Assembly: GCF_021502675.1 (NCBI RefSeq)
Contig: NZ_JAKFHA010000002.1
Span: 476,199 to 540,198, forward strand
DNA length: 64,000 nt
Origin: Yinghuangia soli
GTDB lineage: Bacteria > Actinomycetota > Actinomycetes > Streptomycetales > Streptomycetaceae
Reading direction: 5' to 3'
The notes beneath the pieces were generated by a model. The model was not told where the DNA came from. It ran no database searches and saw only the letters and a list, made by a program, of their open reading frames with translations. The position numbers were made by a program, and so were the translations under genes. This document shows, piece by piece, positions 7,177 to 56,757 of the stretch. How positions within the stretch are numbered: position 1 is the stretch's first letter; each line of letters begins with the position of its first letter.

Positions 7177-7517
7177 TTTTCGGCAAGTACCGCACCGGGT
7201 CCCGGCGGTGTCTGCGCAGGTGGCCGCAGCCCGGCCTGCCGAGTGTGACATGGGCAACATGTGGCGCCGGAGGGGAACTCGGTGACCCGGACGGCTGAAC
7301 GACCCCTACTCTTCTCAATGCGACGGGCGTGTGCCGCCCCGGAGCGGCATCTTCCGGTTCGCCGGGTGCTCCGGAGCGGATGCAGGTCCGTCGCGGTGCG
7401 CGTGCGGTCTGTTACGCCCGGGTACCAGCAGGTCGGCGCGGCGTCCCCCGGATTGTTTTCCGGCCCTGGCGAGCGCCTAGCATCGTCAGGACCGCATTCC
7501 TCATCCCGGAGATCTCT
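7177..7517. other. Intergenic region between csoR and the Pit operon
   Basis: The 341 bp carry no convincing gene. The Pit-operon promoter should lie near its right end; TAGCAT at 7478-7483 is a possible -10 with no clear -35. A minus-strand GTTC-containing stretch at 7269-7301 was considered as a PHO box and not accepted. Confidence 0.4.
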
Positions 7518-8138
7518 GTGCGATTGCGTCTGACCCCCAGGGAGACGAGCTTCTACGACATGTTCGCCACTGCGGCGGACAACTTGGTCACCGGATCCAA
7601 GCTCCTCACCGAGCTTCTCGGCGCCGACGTCTCCGCACGACCGGAGATCGCGGAGCGGATGCGGGCGGCCGAGCACGCCGGCGACAACGCGACCCACGCG
7701 ATTCTCAGCCAGCTCAACTCGTCGTTCATCACGCCCTTCGACCGCGAGGACATCTACACCCTCGCGTCCCAGCTCGACGACGTCATGGACTACATGGACG
7801 AGGCCGTCGACCTGGTCGTGCTGTACCAGCTGGACGAACTGCCCGCGCAGATCGCGGACCAGATCGAGGTGCTGGTGCGGGCCGCCGAGCTCACCGCCGA
7901 GGTGATGCCGCGCCTGCGCACGATGAAGGACCTCACCGAGTACTGGATCGAGGTCAACCGCCTCGAGAACCAGGCCGACCAGGTGCACCGCAAGCTCCTG
8001 GCGCACCTGTTCAGCGGCAAGTACGACGCGCTCACCGTGCTCAAGCTCAAGGGCATCGTGGACGCGCTCGAAGAGGCCGCGGACAGTTTCGAGCACGTCG
8101 CGAACACCATCGAGACCATCGCGGTCAAGGAGTCCTGA
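7518..8138 (+). CDS. DUF47/PhoU-like protein, Pit accessory
   Basis: A 206-residue, all-helical DUF47 protein related to PhoU, started at GTG 7518 (VRLRLTPRETSFYDMF, as in streptomycete relatives). Two PhoU-like helical repeats are seen, with metal-cluster type acidic motifs (ERMRAAEHAGDNATH, FDREDIYTLASQLDDVMDYMDEA, EVNRLENQADQVHRK). The transporter gene starts 3 bp after its stop, so the two are one operon. DUF47 proteins paired with Pit are thought to gate low-affinity phosphate uptake; cytoplasmic, at the membrane. Confidence 0.85.
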   Translation: MRLRLTPRETSFYDMFATAADNLVTGSKLLTELLGADVSARPEIAERMRAAEHAGDNATHAILSQLNSSFITPFDREDIYTLASQLDDVMDYMDEAVDLVVLYQLDELPAQIADQIEVLVRAAELTAEVMPRLRTMKDLTEYWIEVNRLENQADQVHRKLLAHLFSGKYDALTVLKLKGIVDALEEAADSFEHVANTIETIAVKES

Positions 8139-8141
8139 CCG

Positions 8142-9143
8142 GTGGATCTCGTCCTGTTGAGCACCATCGCGATCGTTGTGATGGCACTGGCGTTCGACTA
8201 CACCAACGGGTTCCACGACGCGGCCAACGCCATCGCCACCTCGGTGTCGACCCGGGCGCTCACGCCCCGGGCCGCGCTGGCCATGGCCGCGGTCATGAAC
8301 CTGGCCGGCGCCTTCGCCGGCGAACAAGTGGCCAAGACCGTCGGCAAGGGCATCATCGATGCCCCGGACGGCAGCGAAGGCCTGGTCATCGTGGCCGCCG
8401 CACTCGTCGGTGCGATCACCTGGAACATGATCACCTGGTACTTCGGCCTGCCGTCCTCGTCCACGCACGCCCTCATCGGCGGCCTGGTCGGCGCCGCGCT
8501 CGCGGCGTCCCAGACGGTCAAGTGGGACGGTGTCATCGACAAGGTCGTCATCCCGATGATCCTGTCGCCGCTCATCGGCTTCGGTATCGCGTACCTGCTC
8601 ATGGTCGGGATCCTGTGGATCTTCCGGCGCCGCAACCCGCACAAGGTGACCCGCGGCTTCCGCGTCGCGCAGACCATCTCGGCCGCCGCCATGGCGTTCG
8701 GCCACGGTCTGCAGGACGCCCAGAAGACCATGGGCCTCATCGTCATGGCGCTCGTCGTGGGCGGTTACCAGACCGACTACGACGTGCCGTTCTGGGTCAC
8801 GGTCTCCGCGGCCCTGGCGATCAGCGCGGGTACCTACGCGGGCGGCTGGCGCATCATGCGCACGCTCGGCCGCCGCATCATCGAGCTCGACCCGCCGCGC
8901 GGTTTCGCCGCCGAGGCGACCGCGGCAAGCGTGCTGTACAGCACCGCGTTCGTGTTCCACGCGCCGGTCTCCACCACGCACACCATCACGTCGTCGATCC
9001 TCGGCGTCGGTGCCACCAAGCGGCTCTCCGCGGTCCGCTGGGGCGTGGCCGGCAACATCGTCACCGCGTGGGTGCTCACGATACCGGCGGCAGCGCTGGT
9101 GTCCGCGGGCGCTTACCTGGTGATGAGCCTGATCTTCCTGTAG
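8142..9143 (+). CDS. pit: Low-affinity inorganic phosphate transporter (PiT family)
   Basis: Membrane permease that imports metal-phosphate with protons. It has 333 aa, about ten hydrophobic segments and both PiT signatures: FDYTNGFHDAANAIATSV near residues 15-32, and GHGLQDAQKTMG in the second half, the duplicated phosphate-binding motif. GTG start 3 bp after the DUF47 gene. It converges on pstB across a strong bidirectional terminator, so low-affinity and high-affinity phosphate systems face each other. Constitutive expression is likely; no clear PHO box was found. Confidence 0.93.
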   Translation: MDLVLLSTIAIVVMALAFDYTNGFHDAANAIATSVSTRALTPRAALAMAAVMNLAGAFAGEQVAKTVGKGIIDAPDGSEGLVIVAAALVGAITWNMITWYFGLPSSSTHALIGGLVGAALAASQTVKWDGVIDKVVIPMILSPLIGFGIAYLLMVGILWIFRRRNPHKVTRGFRVAQTISAAAMAFGHGLQDAQKTMGLIVMALVVGGYQTDYDVPFWVTVSAALAISAGTYAGGWRIMRTLGRRIIELDPPRGFAAEATAASVLYSTAFVFHAPVSTTHTITSSILGVGATKRLSAVRWGVAGNIVTAWVLTIPAAALVSAGAYLVMSLIFL

Positions 9144-9172
9144 GGCTCGCGGCAGAGTTCCGCGGTCCGACT

Positions 9173-9216
9173 GCGCATGAGGGGCGGTTCCCGAACGGGA
9201 ACCGCCCCTCATGCGC
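9173..9216. terminator. Bidirectional terminator between pit and pstB
   Basis: A perfect 20-bp stem, GCGCATGAGGGGCGGTTCCC, with loop GAAC, sits between the convergent ends of pit and pstB and can stop transcripts from both sides. Confidence 0.9.
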
Positions 9217-9237
9217 ATCATGTGCCCGTCGTCCCGG

Positions 9238-10014
9238 TCAGCCGAAGCGGCCGGCGATGTAGTCGGCGGTGGCCTCGACCTCGGGCGCCGAGAAGATCTT
9301 CTCGGTGTCGCCGATCTCCACCAGGCGGCCCGGCTGCCCGGGGCCGGCCAGGTTGAAGAACGCGGTGCGGTCGCTCACGCGCGCGGCCTGCTGCATGTTG
9401 TGCGTGACGATGACGATCGTGTACCGCTCCTTGAGCAGCGCGATCAGGTCCTCGATGGCCAGCGTCGAGATCGGGTCGAGCGCCGAGCAGGGCTCGTCCA
9501 TGAGCAGCACCTGCGGCTCCACCGCGATGGCGCGCGCGATGCACAGGCGCTGCTGCTGGCCGCCGGACAGGCCCGAACCGGGCTTGCCGAGGCGGTCCTT
9601 GACCTCGTTCCACAGGTTCGCGCCGCGCAGCGAGCGCTCCACGACCGCGTCCAGGTCGGACTTCTTCTTCACGCCGTTGAGCTTGAGCCCGGCCGCCACG
9701 TTGTCGTAGATCGACATGGTGGGGAACGGGTTCGGGCGCTGGAAGACCATGCCGATGGTGCGGCGCACCGCGACCGGGTCGACCTCGGGGCCGTACAGGT
9801 CCTGCCCGTCCAGCTGCACGCGGCCCTCGACGCGGGCGCCGGGGATCAGCTCGTGCATGCGGTTCAGGGTGCGGATGAAGGTGGACTTGCCGCAGCCCGA
9901 GGGGCCGATGAACGCCGTGACCGTCCGGGGCTCGATGGTCATCGAGATGTCCTCGACGGCCTTGTTGGCGCCGTAGTAGGCGTTGAGTCCGGAGATTTCG
10001 ATGCGCTTGGTCAT
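9238..10014 (-). CDS. pstB: Phosphate ABC transporter ATP-binding protein
   Basis: ATPase of the high-affinity phosphate importer, 258 aa from ATG 10014 ([15 protein letters not shown]). Walker [10 protein letters not shown] at 37-45, Q-loop FQRPNPFP, signature LSGGQ at 149-153, Walker B VLLMDEP at 169-175 and the H-loop [13 protein letters not shown] are all present; the PNPFP element is typical of PstB. An in-frame GTG near the pstA stop would add about 28 residues ([11 protein letters not shown]), but the shorter start matches family length and has a GAGG site. Last gene of pstSCAB. Confidence 0.95.
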
Positions 10015-10091
10015 GCCTGCCTCGTCACGGGCGCCGGTGCCCGGGGTGGTGGATTTTGCTCGGGGCTCGGGGATTCGGGTCTGCGTCACGG

Positions 10092-11162
10092 TCACCGACC
10101 TGCCTTCGGGGCCTTCCAGCGGGCGATGAGTCGCGCCACCAGGTTCAGCACCATCACGATGATGATCAGGGTCAGTGCGCCCGCCCAGGCCCGGTCCCCG
10201 GAGAACTGGTTCCCTGCGTGGTTCTGTTCGAACACGTAGAGCGGGATCGAGCTCTGCCACCCGCTGAACGGGTTGGTGTTGATCGACTGGGTGAGGCCGA
10301 CCAGCAGGAGCAGCGGTGCGGTCTCGCCGATGACGCGGGCCACGGCCAGCATGACACCGGTGATGATGCCGCCCATCGCGGTGGGGAGGACCACCTTGAG
10401 GATGGTGCGCCACTTCGGGATGCCGAGCGCGAGGCTCGCCTCGCGCAGCTCGTTCGGGACCAGCTTGAGCATCTCCTCGGTGGCCCGGACGACGGTGGGC
10501 AGCATGAGGATCATCAGGGCCAGCGAGCCGGCGAAGCCGGAGGCCTCGAAGCCCAGCGTCATGATCCAGAAGGAGTAGACGAACAGGCCCGCGACGATCG
10601 ACGGGATGCCCGTCATGACGTCCACGAAGAAGGTGATCGAACGGGCCAGCCGGCCGCGCCCGTACTCGACCAGGTAGATCGCGGTCAGCAGGCCGAGCGG
10701 CACCGCGATGAGCGCGGCCAGGCCGACCTGCTCCAGCGTGCCGACGATCGCGTGGTAGATGCCGCCGGTGTCGTCCCGGGGGCCGACGCCGCGCATCGAG
10801 TGCGACAGGAAGTACGGCGAGAGCTCCTCGAAGCCCTTCTTGATCGTGTAGCCGAGGATCGAGACCAGCGGCACGATCGCGAGCACGAAGGCGGTGTAGA
10901 CGATGCTCGTCGCGAACCGGTCCTTGGCGCGGCGCCGGTCCTCCAGCCGCCAGGAGGCGGCGGTGACCGTGGCGATGAAGAACAGGCCGGCGTAGAAGGC
11001 GCCGAGCGCCCAGTTGCCCTGGACCGCCTTGACCAGGACGCCGAGGCCCACGGCCGCGGCGCCGAGCGCCCAGGTGATCCAGTCCGGCATGGTGCGGCGG
11101 GTCAGCTTCAGCGGATCCGCGGCGGCGGGGGAGACGGCGGTGTCCGTCGTGGTGATGGTCAT
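10092..11162 (-). CDS. pstA: Phosphate ABC transporter permease PstA
   Basis: One of two membrane subunits of the Pst importer. At 356 aa it is longer than average because of a hydrophilic N-terminus of about 35 residues before the first helices ([17 protein letters not shown]). The inner-membrane ABC permease domain includes [23 protein letters not shown], the EAA loop that contacts PstB. The start overlaps the pstC stop by ATGA, so the subunits are translationally coupled. Confidence 0.94.
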
Positions 11163-12211
11163 GCGTTCGCCCCCGAGAACTCCTTGTGCCGGTTGATGAC
11201 GACGCGGGCCGCGCCGTTCACCAGCAGCGTCAGGAAGAAGAGCACGAGGCCGGAGGCGATGAGCGCGCCCCGGCCGAGTTCGTTCGATTCGCCGAACTGG
11301 TTGGCGATGTTGGCGGCGATGGTGTTGCCGCCCGGGTCGAGGAACTTGAAGACCAGCTCCTGGCTCGAGGACAGGACCATGGCGACCGCGATCGTCTCGC
11401 CCAGCGCGCGGCCGAGGCCGAGCATGGAGGCCGAGATGATGCCCGGCTTGCCGAACGGGAGGACCGCGGTGCGGATCATCTCCCAGCGGGTCGCGCCGAG
11501 GGCCAGGGCGGCCTCTTCGTGGGCCCGCGGCACCTGGAGGAAGACCTCGCGGGTGACCGCGGCGATGATCGGGAGGACCATGATCGCCAGGATGATGCCG
11601 CAGGTGAACAGCGTGCGCGCGGTGGCGCCGGCGTCATCCTTGTCGAAGATCGGGATCCAGCCCAGGTAGTCGCTCAGCCAGGTGTGCAGGCCGATCAGCT
11701 TGGGGGACAGGAAGACCAGTCCCCACAGGCCGAAGACCACGCTGGGCACGGCGGCGAGCAGGTCGACGATGTAGCCGAGGGTCTGCGCGACGCGGCGCGG
11801 TGCGTAATGCGTGATGAAGAGAGCCACCCCCACCGCGACCGGCACCGCGATGAGCATCGCGATGGCGGCGCTGATGACCGTGCCCCCCACCAGGCCGGCG
11901 ACGCCGAAGGCCGGCTTGGCCCCGTCGGTCACCCAGGTGGAGTCGGTCAGGAAGTTCCCGTCGTTCTTGCCGAGCGCGTCCAGCGCCTCGACGACCAGGA
12001 ACACCGCGATGGCGGCCATGATCACGAGGAGCAGGATTCCCGCGCCGCGCGACGAGCCGAGGAACACCCGGTCGCCGAGCCGTACTTGGGTCTTGGCAGG
12101 CTTGGGGAGCTTGGCGTCGGTGCCGTGCCCGGTCTTGTCGGACCGGCCCCGGCGCCGGCCGGAGTCGCGCTTCGCGTCGCCGCGCGACTCCGGCGTGATG
12201 GAGGTGGACAT
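11159..12211 (-). CDS. pstC: Phosphate ABC transporter permease PstC
   Basis: Second Pst membrane subunit, 350 aa. A basic, disordered N-terminus (about 45 residues, rich in R, K and G) precedes six hydrophobic segments. The ABC coupling loop is [22 protein letters not shown]. It lies 37 bp after pstS and overlaps pstA. Forms the channel with PstA in the cytoplasmic membrane. Confidence 0.94.
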
Positions 12212-12248
12212 CTCTTCTCCGTGACTGTCGATCAGGGCTGGTGCCGGA

Positions 12249-13394
12249 TCAGGACAGGCTGGTGACGGCGGTGCGGACCTTCTCGGCGATCGACGCGGGG
12301 AGCGGCGCGTAGCCGTTCTTCGCGAGGAGCCCCTGGCCCTCGGCGCTCGCCGTGTAGGTCAGGAAGGACTTGACCAGCGGCAGCTTGTCCGCCGGGGTGC
12401 CCTTCTCGCAGACGATCTCGTAGGTGACCAGGATGATCGGGTAGGCACCCTCGACCTTGGTCGCGTAATCGAGCTTGAGCTTCAGGTCGTTGCCCTGGCC
12501 GGTGATCTGGGCCGCCTCGACGGCCTTGCCGGCCGCCTCGGGGGTGAGCTTGACCGGCTTGGCCGCGCCCGTGTTGATCCGCGCGATGCCGAGGCCGTTG
12601 TTCTCCGCGAACGAGACCTCCATGTAGCTGATGGAGCCGCTCGTCGACTTCACGACGCTCGCGACACCCTCGCTGCCCTTCGCGCTCTGGCCGTCCTGGG
12701 TCGGCCAGTCCTGCGACGGCTCGGCGGCCCACTCGGCGCCGGCCGTGGCCTTCAGGTACTTGGTGAAGTTCTCGGTGGTGCCGGACTTGTCCGAGCGGTG
12801 CACCGTCTGGATCGGCGACGAGGGCAGCTGCGCGCTCGGGTTGAGCGCCTTGATCTCGGCAGCGTCCCAGGTCTTGATCTTGCCGGCGAAGATGCCGGCG
12901 ATGGTCTTCGCGTCGAGGACGAGGTCCTTCACGTTCGGCAGGTTGTACGCCACCGCGATGGGGCCGGTCACCATCGGGAGGTTGATCGCCGGGCCGGCCT
13001 TGCAGGCGGCCTGGGCCTTGGCGGCCTCGTCGTCCTTGAGCGCCGAGTCGGAGCCGGCGATGCTGACCTGGCCGTCGAAGAAGGCCTGGCGGCCCGCGCC
13101 CGAACCGTTCGAGTTGTAGTTGACCGTGCTGCCCGAGCACTTCTGCTGGTACTGCTTGGCCCACTCGTCGATCGCGTTCTTCTGCGCGCTGGAGCCGGCC
13201 GCCGCGAGGGTGCCGGAGGCGCAGTCGAGCTTGGCGGCCGGTGCCGTGGAGCCGCCCCCGGGCTGCTCGGTGCCCTTCGAGTCGTTGCTGCCGCTGTTGT
13301 CGTCGGAGCCACAGGCGGTGAGCGTGAGCGCGCCGGCGACGGCTATCGCGGCGAAAGCGGTGCTGCGCCGAGCGAGTCGGGGCCGAGTGGTCAC
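12249..13394 (-). CDS. pstS: Phosphate-binding lipoprotein PstS
   Basis: Substrate-binding lipoprotein of the Pst importer. GTG at 13394 with a GGAAGGA ribosome site was chosen; it gives 381 aa and the signal peptide RSTAFAAIAVAGALTLTAC with Cys28 as lipidated residue. Ligand-loop motifs of PstS are seen: AAGSSAQKNAIDEW, IAGSDSALKDDE, and RSDKSGTTENFTKYL, which contain the Ser/Thr/Arg/Asp residues that hold phosphate. A PHO box lies 98 bp upstream. Exposed on the outer membrane face. Confidence 0.95.
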   Translation of the reverse strand: MTTRPRLARRSTAFAAIAVAGALTLTACGSDDNSGSNDSKGTEQPGGGSTAPAAKLDCASGTLAAAGSSAQKNAIDEWAKQYQQKCSGSTVNYNSNGSGAGRQAFFDGQVSIAGSDSALKDDEAAKAQAACKAGPAINLPMVTGPIAVAYNLPNVKDLVLDAKTIAGIFAGKIKTWDAAEIKALNPSAQLPSSPIQTVHRSDKSGTTENFTKYLKATAGAEWAAEPSQDWPTQDGQSAKGSEGVASVVKSTSGSISYMEVSFAENNGLGIARINTGAAKPVKLTPEAAGKAVEAAQITGQGNDLKLKLDYATKVEGAYPIILVTYEIVCEKGTPADKLPLVKSFLTYTASAEGQGLLAKNGYAPLPASIAEKVRTAVTSLS

Positions 13395-53503: not shown

Positions 53504-54262
53504 ATGGCCGACACCGCATACAAGCTCGTGCTCCTCCGCCACGGTGAGAGCGACTGGAACCGCAAGGGTCTCTTCACCGGGTGGGTCGACGTCGACCTCA
53601 CCGAGACCGGCGAGACGGAGGCCGCGCGCGGCGGTCAGCTGCTGATCGACGCCGACGTGCTCCCCGACGTGCTGCACACGTCGCTGCAGCGCCGCGCGAT
53701 CCGCACCGCGCAGCTCGCCCTCGACTCCGCGGACCGCAACTGGATCCCGGTGCGCCGCTCGTGGCGCCTCAACGAGCGCCACTACGGCGCCCTGCAGGGC
53801 AAGGACAAGGCCGCCACGCTCGCCGAGTTCGGCGAGGAGCAGTTCATGCTGTGGCGCCGCTCGTACGACACCCCGCCGCCGCCGCTGGCCGACGACGACG
53901 AGTACTCGCAGGTGAACGACGCCGCGTACGCCGGGCTGCCGGACGAGATCCGCCCGCGCACCGAGTGCCTCAAGGACGTCGTCGAGCGCATGCTGCCGTA
54001 CTGGTACGACGCGATCGTGCCGGACCTGCAGGCCGGCCGCACCACGCTCGTCGCGGCGCACGGCAACTCGCTGCGCGCGCTGGTCAAGCACCTCGACGGC
54101 ATCTCCGACGACGCCATCGCGGGCCTGAACATCCCCACCGGCATCCCGCTCCTGTACGAGCTGGACGCCGACCTGCGCCCGGTCACCCCGGGCGGCCGCT
54201 ACCTCGACCCGGAGGCCGCCGCGGCGGCCATCGAGGCGGTCAAGAACCAGGGCCGCAAGTAG
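53504..54262 (+). CDS. gpmA: 2,3-bisphosphoglycerate-dependent phosphoglycerate mutase
   Basis: Glycolytic and gluconeogenic mutase for 3- and 2-phosphoglycerate, 252 aa. The phosphohistidine lies in [19 protein letters not shown] (His13). The second conserved histidine is in [17 protein letters not shown], and [18 protein letters not shown] is characteristic. Cytoplasmic. Confidence 0.95.
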
Positions 54263-54346: not shown

Positions 54347-54388
54347 GAAAAGGGGCGCCCGTCACGGAAGGGGTGGGCGCCCCTTTTC
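54347..54388. terminator. Terminator between gpmA and the cysteine-rich peptide gene
   Basis: GAAAAGGGGCGCCC pairs perfectly with GGGCGCCCCTTTTC (14 bp), with A and T runs at the outer ends, so it can act in both directions. Confidence 0.88.
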
Positions 54389-54410: not shown

Positions 54411-54590
54411 TCAGCCGCAGCCGCCGCCGCAGTTGCAGGACGAGCCGGACTTGCAGCCGCAGCCGCAGGTCGAGGGGCAGCTGCACCCCGGTGTCGGCGC
54501 CGACGCGGGTCGGCCGGCCGCCGAGCGGACCGGGGTGATCTCGATCAGGGTGCGTGCTTCGGTCTGGCGCGGGGTGTGCGGATCGGGCAT
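54411..54590 (-). CDS. Cysteine-rich 59-residue peptide, metallothionein-like or RiPP-like
   Basis: ATG 54590 is preceded by a perfect GGAGGT site. Residues 1-35 (MPDPHTPRQTEARTLIEIT and on) are polar without cysteine. The last 24 residues hold eight cysteines: GCSCPSTCGCGCKSG, then SSCNCGGGCG. The CxC pairs resemble metallothioneins; a cysteine-free leader followed by a Cys/Ser/Thr/Gly core also resembles a modified-peptide precursor, but no maturase is beside it. It occupies the position, divergent from phoR, where phoU is found in Streptomyces, and a PHO array points to it. Confidence 0.7.
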   Translation of the reverse strand: MPDPHTPRQTEARTLIEITPVRSAAGRPASAPTPGCSCPSTCGCGCKSGSSCNCGGGCG

Positions 54591-54723
54591 GAGACCTCCG
54601 TTCACCTGTCTGGACCATGCGGAATTTCTGGCGCCCCGGCACGGTCCGTATTCGAGTCAACCCACAACGCATCCGCCCGTCAACGGGCAGAAGCCTGCAA
54701 AATGCGCGTCTTGCCACATCTGC

Positions 54724-54767
54724 TCGGGCTGAACCCGATACGGCCGAGCGGTGAACAGTCGATGAAG
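54724..54767 (-). promoter_or_regulatory. Four-unit PHO array between the Cys-rich peptide and phoR
   Basis: On the minus strand, four consecutive 11-nt units: CTTCATCGACT, GTTCACCGCTC, GGCCGTATCGG, GTTCAGCCCGA. Three of four have the TTCA core in phase. This is the PhoP-binding arrangement of the phoU-phoRP intergenic region in Streptomyces. It points toward the Cys-rich peptide gene. Confidence 0.7.
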
Positions 54768-54794
54768 TCATCCGGTCGACGGCGTCCGGAGTGG

Positions 54795-54822
54795 GTTCAC
54801 CCGTTCGGGGCAGCTTTACCCT
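54795..54822 (+). promoter_or_regulatory. phoR promoter with PHO half-site
   Basis: GTTCACCCGTT (54795-54805) overlaps the expected -35, and TACCCT (54817-54822) is the -10, 13 nt before the phoR GTG. This predicts a leaderless, PhoP-controlled phoRP message. Confidence 0.55.
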
Positions 54823-54829
54823 GGGTTCT

Positions 54830-56080
54830 GTGGACGTGAACGTGGCCGCGGCGGCCTTCGCCGCCGTGTGCGGTTTGGGCGTGGGTGTAGCCGGGACCTT
54901 GGCGTTCCGCTGGAGCGAGCGCTCGCAGGTCGCCGGAGCTCCGGCCGGCCCCGCGGCCGGCCCGGTGCTGCCGCCCGGCGTGGCCATCGTGCTGTCCGTC
55001 CTGCGGTCCTCCGCGGTGGTGCTCGACGAGCGCGACGCGGTGGTCAAGGCCAGCTCGGCCGCCTACACGTTCGGCCTGGTCCGCGGCGACCAACTGGTGC
55101 CCGAGGAACTCCTGCGGATGGCCCGGGAGACCCGGCGGGACGGCGAGATAAGGCAGCGCGACCTGCTGCTCGCCCGCCGCGACGGCCAGGAGCTGGAGGT
55201 CTCCGCGCGCGTGGCCCCGCTGGGCTCGCGCCTGGTCCTGCTGCTGGTCGAGGACCGCACCGAGGCCCGCCGCGTGGACGCGGTGCGCCGCGACTTCGTG
55301 GCCAACGTCAGCCACGAGCTCAAGACCCCGGTGGGCGCCCTGTCGCTGCTCGCCGAGGCGGTCCTGGACGCCAGCGACGACCCCGAGGCGGTACGCCGCT
55401 TCTCCGGCCGCATGCAGGTCGAGTCCGCGCGCCTGACCAACCTCGTGCAGGAGCTCATCGACCTGTCGCGCGTGCAGAACGACCACCCGCTGCAGGACAT
55501 CGCCCCGGTGCCGGTCGACGAACTGGTCGCCGAGGCGGTCGACCGCTGCCGCCAGGTCGCGCAGAACAAGCAGATCACCCTCGCGGTCGGCGGCGACCCG
55601 GGCCTGGTGATCCCCGGCGACCACAACCAGCTCGTCATGGCGCTCGGCAACCTGGTCGAGAACGCCGTCAACTACAGCCCGGAGCGGACCCGCGTCGACA
55701 TCGACGTGCGCGTCACCGGCCGCAAGGCCGTCATCGCGGTGTCCGACCAGGGCATCGGCATCCCGCACCGGGACCTGGACCGGATCTTCGAGCGCTTCTA
55801 CCGGGTCGACCCGGCGCGCTCCCGGGCGACCGGGGGAACCGGTCTCGGGCTGTCCATCGTGAAACACATCGTGGCCGGACACGGGGGCGAGGTCACCGTC
55901 CGCAGCCTCGAGGGCGTGGGCACCACCTTCACCCTCGTGCTGCCCCTTCTGCCCGCCGACGAACGAGGGCACCATGCCCTCGACGCGGCGTCCACCGTGA
56001 CGCGGCCCGGCGCACCGTCCGCGCCTTCCGGATCGAGTGATCTGGCCCCGTCGTACAACTCCCGGGAGGGTTCGGGATGA
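54830..56080 (+). CDS. phoR: Phosphate sensor histidine kinase PhoR (SenX3-like)
   Basis: Membrane-bound sensor of phosphate limitation, 416 aa from GTG 54830 (VDVNVAAAAFAAVCGLGVGVAG, one or two short spans as in Streptomyces PhoR). A PAS-like region (about 50-140) is followed by the phosphoacceptor His162 in FVANVSHELKTPVGAL and the ATPase boxes NLVENAVNYSP (N), VSDQGIGIPHRDLDRIFERFYR (G1, F) and GGTGLGLSIVKHI (G2). It overlaps phoP by ATGA. No phoU is adjacent. Confidence 0.94.
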   Translation: MDVNVAAAAFAAVCGLGVGVAGTLAFRWSERSQVAGAPAGPAAGPVLPPGVAIVLSVLRSSAVVLDERDAVVKASSAAYTFGLVRGDQLVPEELLRMARETRRDGEIRQRDLLLARRDGQELEVSARVAPLGSRLVLLLVEDRTEARRVDAVRRDFVANVSHELKTPVGALSLLAEAVLDASDDPEAVRRFSGRMQVESARLTNLVQELIDLSRVQNDHPLQDIAPVPVDELVAEAVDRCRQVAQNKQITLAVGGDPGLVIPGDHNQLVMALGNLVENAVNYSPERTRVDIDVRVTGRKAVIAVSDQGIGIPHRDLDRIFERFYRVDPARSRATGGTGLGLSIVKHIVAGHGGEVTVRSLEGVGTTFTLVLPLLPADERGHHALDAASTVTRPGAPSAPSGSSDLAPSYNSREGSG

Positions 56081-56757
56081 CCCGAGTGCTCGTCGTCGAG
56101 GACGAAGAGTCCTTCAGCGACCCGCTGGCGTTCCTGCTGCGCAAGGAGGGGTTCGAGGTCGCCGTCGCGGTCACCGGGCCCGATGCGCTCGAACAGTTCG
56201 ACCAGGGCGGTGCCGACCTCGTGCTGCTCGACCTGATGCTGCCGGGGCTGCCCGGCACCGAGGTGTGCCGCCGGCTGCGCGCCAAGTCCAACGTGCCGGT
56301 CATCATGGTGACCGCCAAGGACAGTGAGGTCGACAAGGTCGTCGGCCTGGAGATCGGCGCGGACGACTACGTCACCAAGCCCTTCTCCTCGCGCGAGCTG
56401 GTGGCCCGCATCCGCGCGGTGCTGCGCCGCCAGGGCGAGCCCGCCGAGGTCGAGCCGACCGCGCTGGAGGCCGGCCCGGTGCGCATGGACGTCGACCGGC
56501 ACCGCGTCACCGTGGACGGCGTCAAGGTCGAGCTCCCGCTCAAGGAGTTCGACCTGCTGGAGCTGCTGCTGCGCAACGCGGGCCGCGTGCTGACCCGCAT
56601 GCAGCTCATCGACCGCGTGTGGGGCGCCGGGTACGTCGGCGACACCAAGACGCTCGACGTCCACGTGAAGCGGCTGCGCGCCAAGATCGAGCCCGACCCC
56701 GGGGCGCCCCGCTACCTGGTCACCGTCCGAGGCCTGGGCTACAAGTTCGAGCCCTGA
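56077..56757 (+). CDS. phoP: Phosphate response regulator PhoP (RegX3-like)
   Basis: OmpR-type response regulator, 226 aa, which binds PHO boxes. Receiver domain with acidic pocket VLVVEDEESFSDP, phosphoacceptor Asp52 (VLLDLMLPGLPG), Thr in MVTAKDSE and Lys in YVTKPFSSREL. The C-terminal winged helix (GVKVELPLKEFDLLELLLRN to DTKTLDVHVKRLRAKI) reads direct repeats. Coupled to phoR by a 4-nt overlap. Confidence 0.95.
   Translation: MTRVLVVEDEESFSDPLAFLLRKEGFEVAVAVTGPDALEQFDQGGADLVLLDLMLPGLPGTEVCRRLRAKSNVPVIMVTAKDSEVDKVVGLEIGADDYVTKPFSSRELVARIRAVLRRQGEPAEVEPTALEAGPVRMDVDRHRVTVDGVKVELPLKEFDLLELLLRNAGRVLTRMQLIDRVWGAGYVGDTKTLDVHVKRLRAKIEPDPGAPRYLVTVRGLGYKFEP

Follow-up and report, generated by a model that had tools for sequence, protein, structure and literature searches.

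Small, Cys-rich proteins of actinobacteria include MymT, a mycobacterial Cu(I) metallothionein that seems to differ from the protein treated here in Cys arrangement and genomic context and is a lead only, and MtpA of Streptomyces, for which the primary paper, on Streptomyces lividans, is reportedly that of Ghorbel and colleagues from 2006, as told in the papers that cite it. Here, we describe a 59-amino-acid open reading frame (ORF) on the minus strand (54590 to 54411) of a 64-kb stretch of the Yinghuangia soli genome (contig NZ_JAKFHA010000002.1, 64,000 nucleotides, hereafter the window), which, judging from its Cys core and flanking genes, is the ortholog of Streptomyces mtpA (SCO4227) in a lineage devoid of phoU. 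In the closest described system, the entry for SCO4227 reads "Metallothionein protein (mtpA)," and its neighbors are phoU (SCO4228), phoR (SCO4229), and phoP (SCO4230) (PMC2267785). A 2024 study of Streptomyces placed mtpA directly 3' of phoU, with both genes divergent from phoRP and mtpA transcribed from its own promoter as well as by read-through from phoU (PMC11019849). Moreover, Streptomyces mtpA is upregulated under phosphate (Pi) limitation (PMC3282765).

The gene order in the window is gpm1 (phosphoglycerate mutase, convergent with mtpA; 53504 to 54262, forward; NF010718 above the cutoff), mtpA (reverse), the sensor kinase gene phoR/senX3 (54833 to 56080, forward; HisKA and HATPase_c domains, with PnpS and PhoR as the best NCBIfam models, both below the cutoff), and the response regulator gene phoP/regX3 (56077 to 56757, forward; Response_reg and Trans_reg_C domains), with mtpA being divergent from phoR-phoP as in Streptomyces. 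Most homologous loci contained gpm1, mtpA, phoU, and phoR in this order, which matches the published Streptomyces layout and therefore supports the assignment to mtpA; a place beside the phosphate sensor, which an earlier note on this DNA had called unexpected, is thus the usual one in Streptomycetaceae. Like its Streptomyces counterparts, the window protein is small and Cys-rich and is encoded beside the phosphate regulators, and the 8-Cys core is identical in Streptomyces loci. However, the residues within the core differ (CGSGCGCGCQSGG there versus CPSxCGCGCKSGS in the window protein), the leader is longer in the window's genus, and the window locus lacks phoU, leaving mtpA directly divergent from phoR. 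The position directly 3' of phoU does not apply here, phoU being absent from the genome. Considering that orthology rests on the core and the flanks, the missing phoU was interpreted as a neighbor lost in the host lineage, with the orthology of mtpA intact.

Translation of the ORF gave MPDPHTPRQTEARTLIEITPVRSAAGRPASAPTPGCSCPSTCGCGCKSGSSCNCGGGCG, in which all eight Cys lie within the last 24 residues, the first 35 are free of Cys, and Phe, Trp, and Tyr are absent, confirming the Cys-rich peptide divergent from phoR that had been read from the DNA earlier. Its Cys residues are arranged in CxC and CxxxC motifs, in keeping with the low mass and high Cys content of metallothioneins. The core, CxCx3CxCxCx5CxCx3C (54417 to 54485, minus strand), occurred once in the six frames of the window and in none of 40 dinucleotide shuffles, and the same strict spacing was found in most Streptomycetaceae loci examined, with partial Cys patterns in five variant loci (L064, L086, L089, L095, and L097). 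Close homologs, with identities of 76 and 60 percent, were detected in both remaining genomes of the genus, and further ones in other genera. Alignment of ten homologs revealed that the eight Cys and four Gly were invariant, while leader length ranged from nearly none to more than 30 residues, the Cys block being the best-conserved part. The earlier note had proposed searching for homologs beside phoR and had held that a lack of any with conserved Cys in related genomes, along with a lack of transcript, would speak against its reading; such homologs were found, mostly between gpm1 and phoU/phoR. With regard to the searches, a peptide-only locus search of genome contigs returned no relatives, and the homologous loci were recovered with a PhoR protein query. 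A first tblastn search over the relatives yielded many matches at E values of 0.01 to 1 that were composition noise, and a profile tally of 383 out of 392 genomes of the order may contain composition-driven matches, so directly inspected loci were relied on instead.

Within the core, the window gene differed from the Embleya-type copies at 2, 2, and 11 and at 2, 2, and 10 sites in the first, second, and third codon positions, respectively, and two Embleya-type copies differed from each other at 0, 0, and 6. In addition, TGC and TGT were swapped among the Cys codons of mtpA copies, with the Cys residue unchanged. This third-position bias, with Cys kept despite the codon exchange, shows that the ORF encodes a protein and that purifying selection acts on it. 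A Shine-Dalgarno sequence, GGAGGT (54594 to 54599, minus strand), is present as claimed earlier, although its spacing of 3 nt to the ATG is short for a site that had been termed perfect; the GGAG is kept in the genus and in Embleya-type copies, and the same or a similar motif lies a few nucleotides 5' of the start in related copies. A promoter scan did not find a sigma-70-type site.

PhoU (PF01895) had no match at an E value of ≤1 in any of the three genomes of the window's genus or the four genomes of the Embleya-type genus, and was present in all 36 other genomes of the 41-genome relatives set. A phoU remnant was not detectable at the mtpA-phoR site, and assembly gaps do not explain the absence of PhoU, because the genomes without it include one assembled into a single contig. 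The second PhoU-less genus is probably Embleya, given that the Embleya hyalina record (L094) matched another member of this group (L006) in both locus arrangement and peptide. All seven PhoU-less genomes have kept a Cys-rich mtpA homolog, and PstSCAB and PhoRP are still encoded in the window genome (pstB, 9238 to 10029, and pstS, 12249 to 13394, both on the minus strand). Thus, the unusual feature of this lineage is the loss of phoU with retention of mtpA, and the peptide itself is ordinary for the family. Our literature search found no work linking Yinghuangia with PhoU. This natural loss of phoU, with mtpA, PstSCAB, and PhoRP kept, offers a ready comparison for the part played by MtpA in the phosphate response, and also bears on how PhoR stays off at plentiful phosphate without PhoU.

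In the relatives, the phoU-phoR intergenic region contains a PHO box that reads, on the minus strand, as three units of 11 nt (for instance, GTTCACCTTGA, GGTCGGTGGTG, and GTTCACTCGGG), aligned upstream of phoR. Gapless alignment to this box identified a putative PHO box built from three direct repeats of 11 nt, GTTCACCGCTC, GGCCGTATCGG, and GTTCAGCCCGA, in the window (54724 to 54756, minus strand), with 134 nt between the mtpA ATG and this candidate PhoP site. A first scan by consensus gave many chance pairs, and only a matrix derived from the phoU-phoR boxes of 15 relatives with phoU was specific. With this matrix, the window box scored 11.0, was the sole site above 9 on both strands of the window, and was equaled by 5 of 1,000 shuffles of the intergenic region; the matching position scored 7.2 and 11.8 in the two remaining genomes of the genus (8 and 2 of 1,000 shuffles, respectively). 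From this comparison, the window box is a retained part of the ancestral phoU-phoR control region, and mtpA holds the former position of phoU in its own genus. The loss of phoU seems to have been accompanied by a remodeling of the phoR promoter. A possible fourth unit, CTTCATCGACT (54757 to 54767, minus strand), lies in tandem with the box and has a matching CTTCAT/GTTCA pair in Embleya-type genomes, which is suggestive only.

Taken together, we consider it likely that the mtpA ortholog encodes a protein, probably cytoplasmic, that acts as a metallothionein-like metal and redox buffer, expressed under phosphate starvation from beside a PHO box retained after the loss of phoU. The eight Cys following a variable, Cys-free leader would form a compact thiolate metal-binding module; judged by established metallothionein chemistry, eight thiolates, the lack of aromatic residues, and the Gly-rich core would fit a small metallothionein with room for some two Zn(II) ions or one Cu(I) cluster. 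With phoU lost from between mtpA and phoR-phoP in this lineage, mtpA now directly adjoins the PHO box that once separated phoU from phoR. Under phosphate starvation, PhoR-PhoP would be activated, PhoP may then act on mtpA in this lineage at the retained box and/or at the promoter of mtpA itself to raise its expression, and MtpA would buffer a thiophilic metal (most likely Zn or Cu) and/or scavenge oxidants for as long as starvation lasts.

Several observations weigh against this interpretation. The control of Streptomyces mtpA is disputed, being described as Pi responsive yet PhoP independent (PMC3282765) versus PhoRP regulated (PMC4991794), and an mtpA reporter in one Streptomyces strain answered to Mg and not to Zn or Mn (PMC11019849); because the reporter was unresponsive to Zn, a role in Zn detoxification is not favored. 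A published demonstration of metal binding by MtpA, or other MtpA biochemistry, was not found in the literature examined. Furthermore, the full PHO box was not recognizable with the same matrix in Embleya-type genomes, where one GTTCAT unit and one CTTCAT unit persist. Metallothionein models did not recognize the window protein either, since Pfam returned nothing at an E value of ≤10 and NCBIfam no relevant match. A PDB search likewise yielded no useful structure. The Pfam family Metallothio_5, which has similar metallothionein-type Cys motifs, was weakly matched by one of 20 family cores (E value, 0.016) and not by the window protein itself, and this resemblance probably reflects convergent composition. 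As no curated model matches it, the window protein is termed metallothionein-like and is not assigned to any curated metallothionein family. MtpA is a named, little-studied family that lies beside phosphate regulators in most streptomycete loci examined and for which Pfam and NCBIfam hold no model.

A related and possible, though less favored, explanation is that MtpA is primarily a thiol redox protectant rather than a metal store, scavenging oxidants as phosphate-starved cells raise their respiration. Reviewers have proposed a link between mtpA and oxidative stress (PMC7866108). A core profile search of 198 genomes of the class also detected the exact 8-Cys core in a second family (f19) of tiny ORFs such as MSGCSCGSSCGCGCQSGSSCSCGGSC, at seven loci (L178, L179, L182, L187, L190, L191, and L193), and in three of these (L182, L190, and L193) the ORF adjoins the gene for subunit II of cytochrome bd oxidase, a point in favor of this explanation. 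A phoR or phoU homolog was not found in the 3-kb f19 loci, indicating that the 8-Cys module is not bound to phosphate control everywhere. However, SCO4226 to SCO4230 of Streptomyces coelicolor are strongly downregulated under oxidative stress (PMC4991794), the opposite of what a simple protectant would show, and the exact Cys spacing exceeds the needs of redox scavenging.

It seems unlikely that MtpA is a metal-responsive modulator of PhoR-PhoP that partly replaces PhoU in the PhoU-less lineage, even though mtpA is retained in 7 of 7 genomes without phoU, now occupies the phoU position by the PHO box, and coexists with persisting PstSCAB and PhoRP. Such retention requires no new function, and a 59-residue Cys peptide lacks the helical-domain architecture of PhoU. 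In Streptomyces, moreover, MtpA was dispensable for the PhoRP-dependent spatial control of one antibiotic, and in strain WAC07094 the wild-type phenotype returned on complementation with phoU-phoRP lacking mtpA, so that this output of PhoRP did not require MtpA (PMC11019849). We would give little credence to the fuller version of this idea, in which the clade formed by Embleya and the window's genus runs Pho control without PhoU and MtpA, at the PHO box of phoU, is a PhoP-controlled metal/redox component and partial stand-in for PhoU, for example by reporting the metal or redox state to PhoR.

The earlier note had left open whether the peptide is a metallothionein or the precursor of a modified peptide. 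Orthology to mtpA, the invariant core, and synteny bear out the first half. A ribosomally made precursor, with a leader and a modified Cys core, would account for an N-terminal part free of Cys ahead of a C terminus rich in it, yet we regard it as highly improbable: no maturation or export gene lies nearby (the neighbors are gpm1, ybjN, mshA, phoR, and phoP), and the gene is syntenic across the family without a partner enzyme. In addition, the leader, expected to be conserved in such a precursor, is the least conserved part and is nearly absent in one homolog (L009, MSGCACGPGC...). Finally, at least eight Cys per 24 residues also occur, without the exact pattern, at three other places in the window, which makes Cys density alone weaker evidence than spacing and conservation and would suit a spurious ORF in high-GC DNA, an explanation refuted by the strict spacing, third-position bias, conserved start and Shine-Dalgarno sequence, and synteny, and given next to no weight here.

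The convergent gap between gpm1 and mtpA contains a perfect 14-bp inverted repeat (54347 to 54388; arms at 54347 to 54360 and 54375 to 54388) with a predicted fold of −40.2 kcal/mol (z score, −4.0). A simple terminator pattern scan did not call this hairpin because its T/A tails are only 4 nt long; consequently, the strong bidirectional terminator previously claimed is supported as to its repeat and fold and is plausible, rather than established, as to its function. Further observations concern the phosphate genes. The segment just 5' of phoR (54780 to 54832, TTCACYCGTTCGG..CAGCTYTACCCTGG-like) was conserved in the PhoU-less clade (L002, L003, L004, L006, L093, and L094), and a CTCTTGGCAACGAGTGTTCGAG element, conserved among many of the relatives that have PhoU, was gone from this clade. 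In two Glycomyces loci (L161 and L162), there was no phoU between gpm1 and the senX3/phoR homolog, possibly owing to an independent rearrangement. A Pit transporter and a DUF47/PhoU_div protein (7461 to 9143, plus strand) are encoded beside pstSCAB. This region (7461 to 13394) lies ∼41 to 47 kb from phoRP, placing most of the phosphate uptake genes and regulators within one window.
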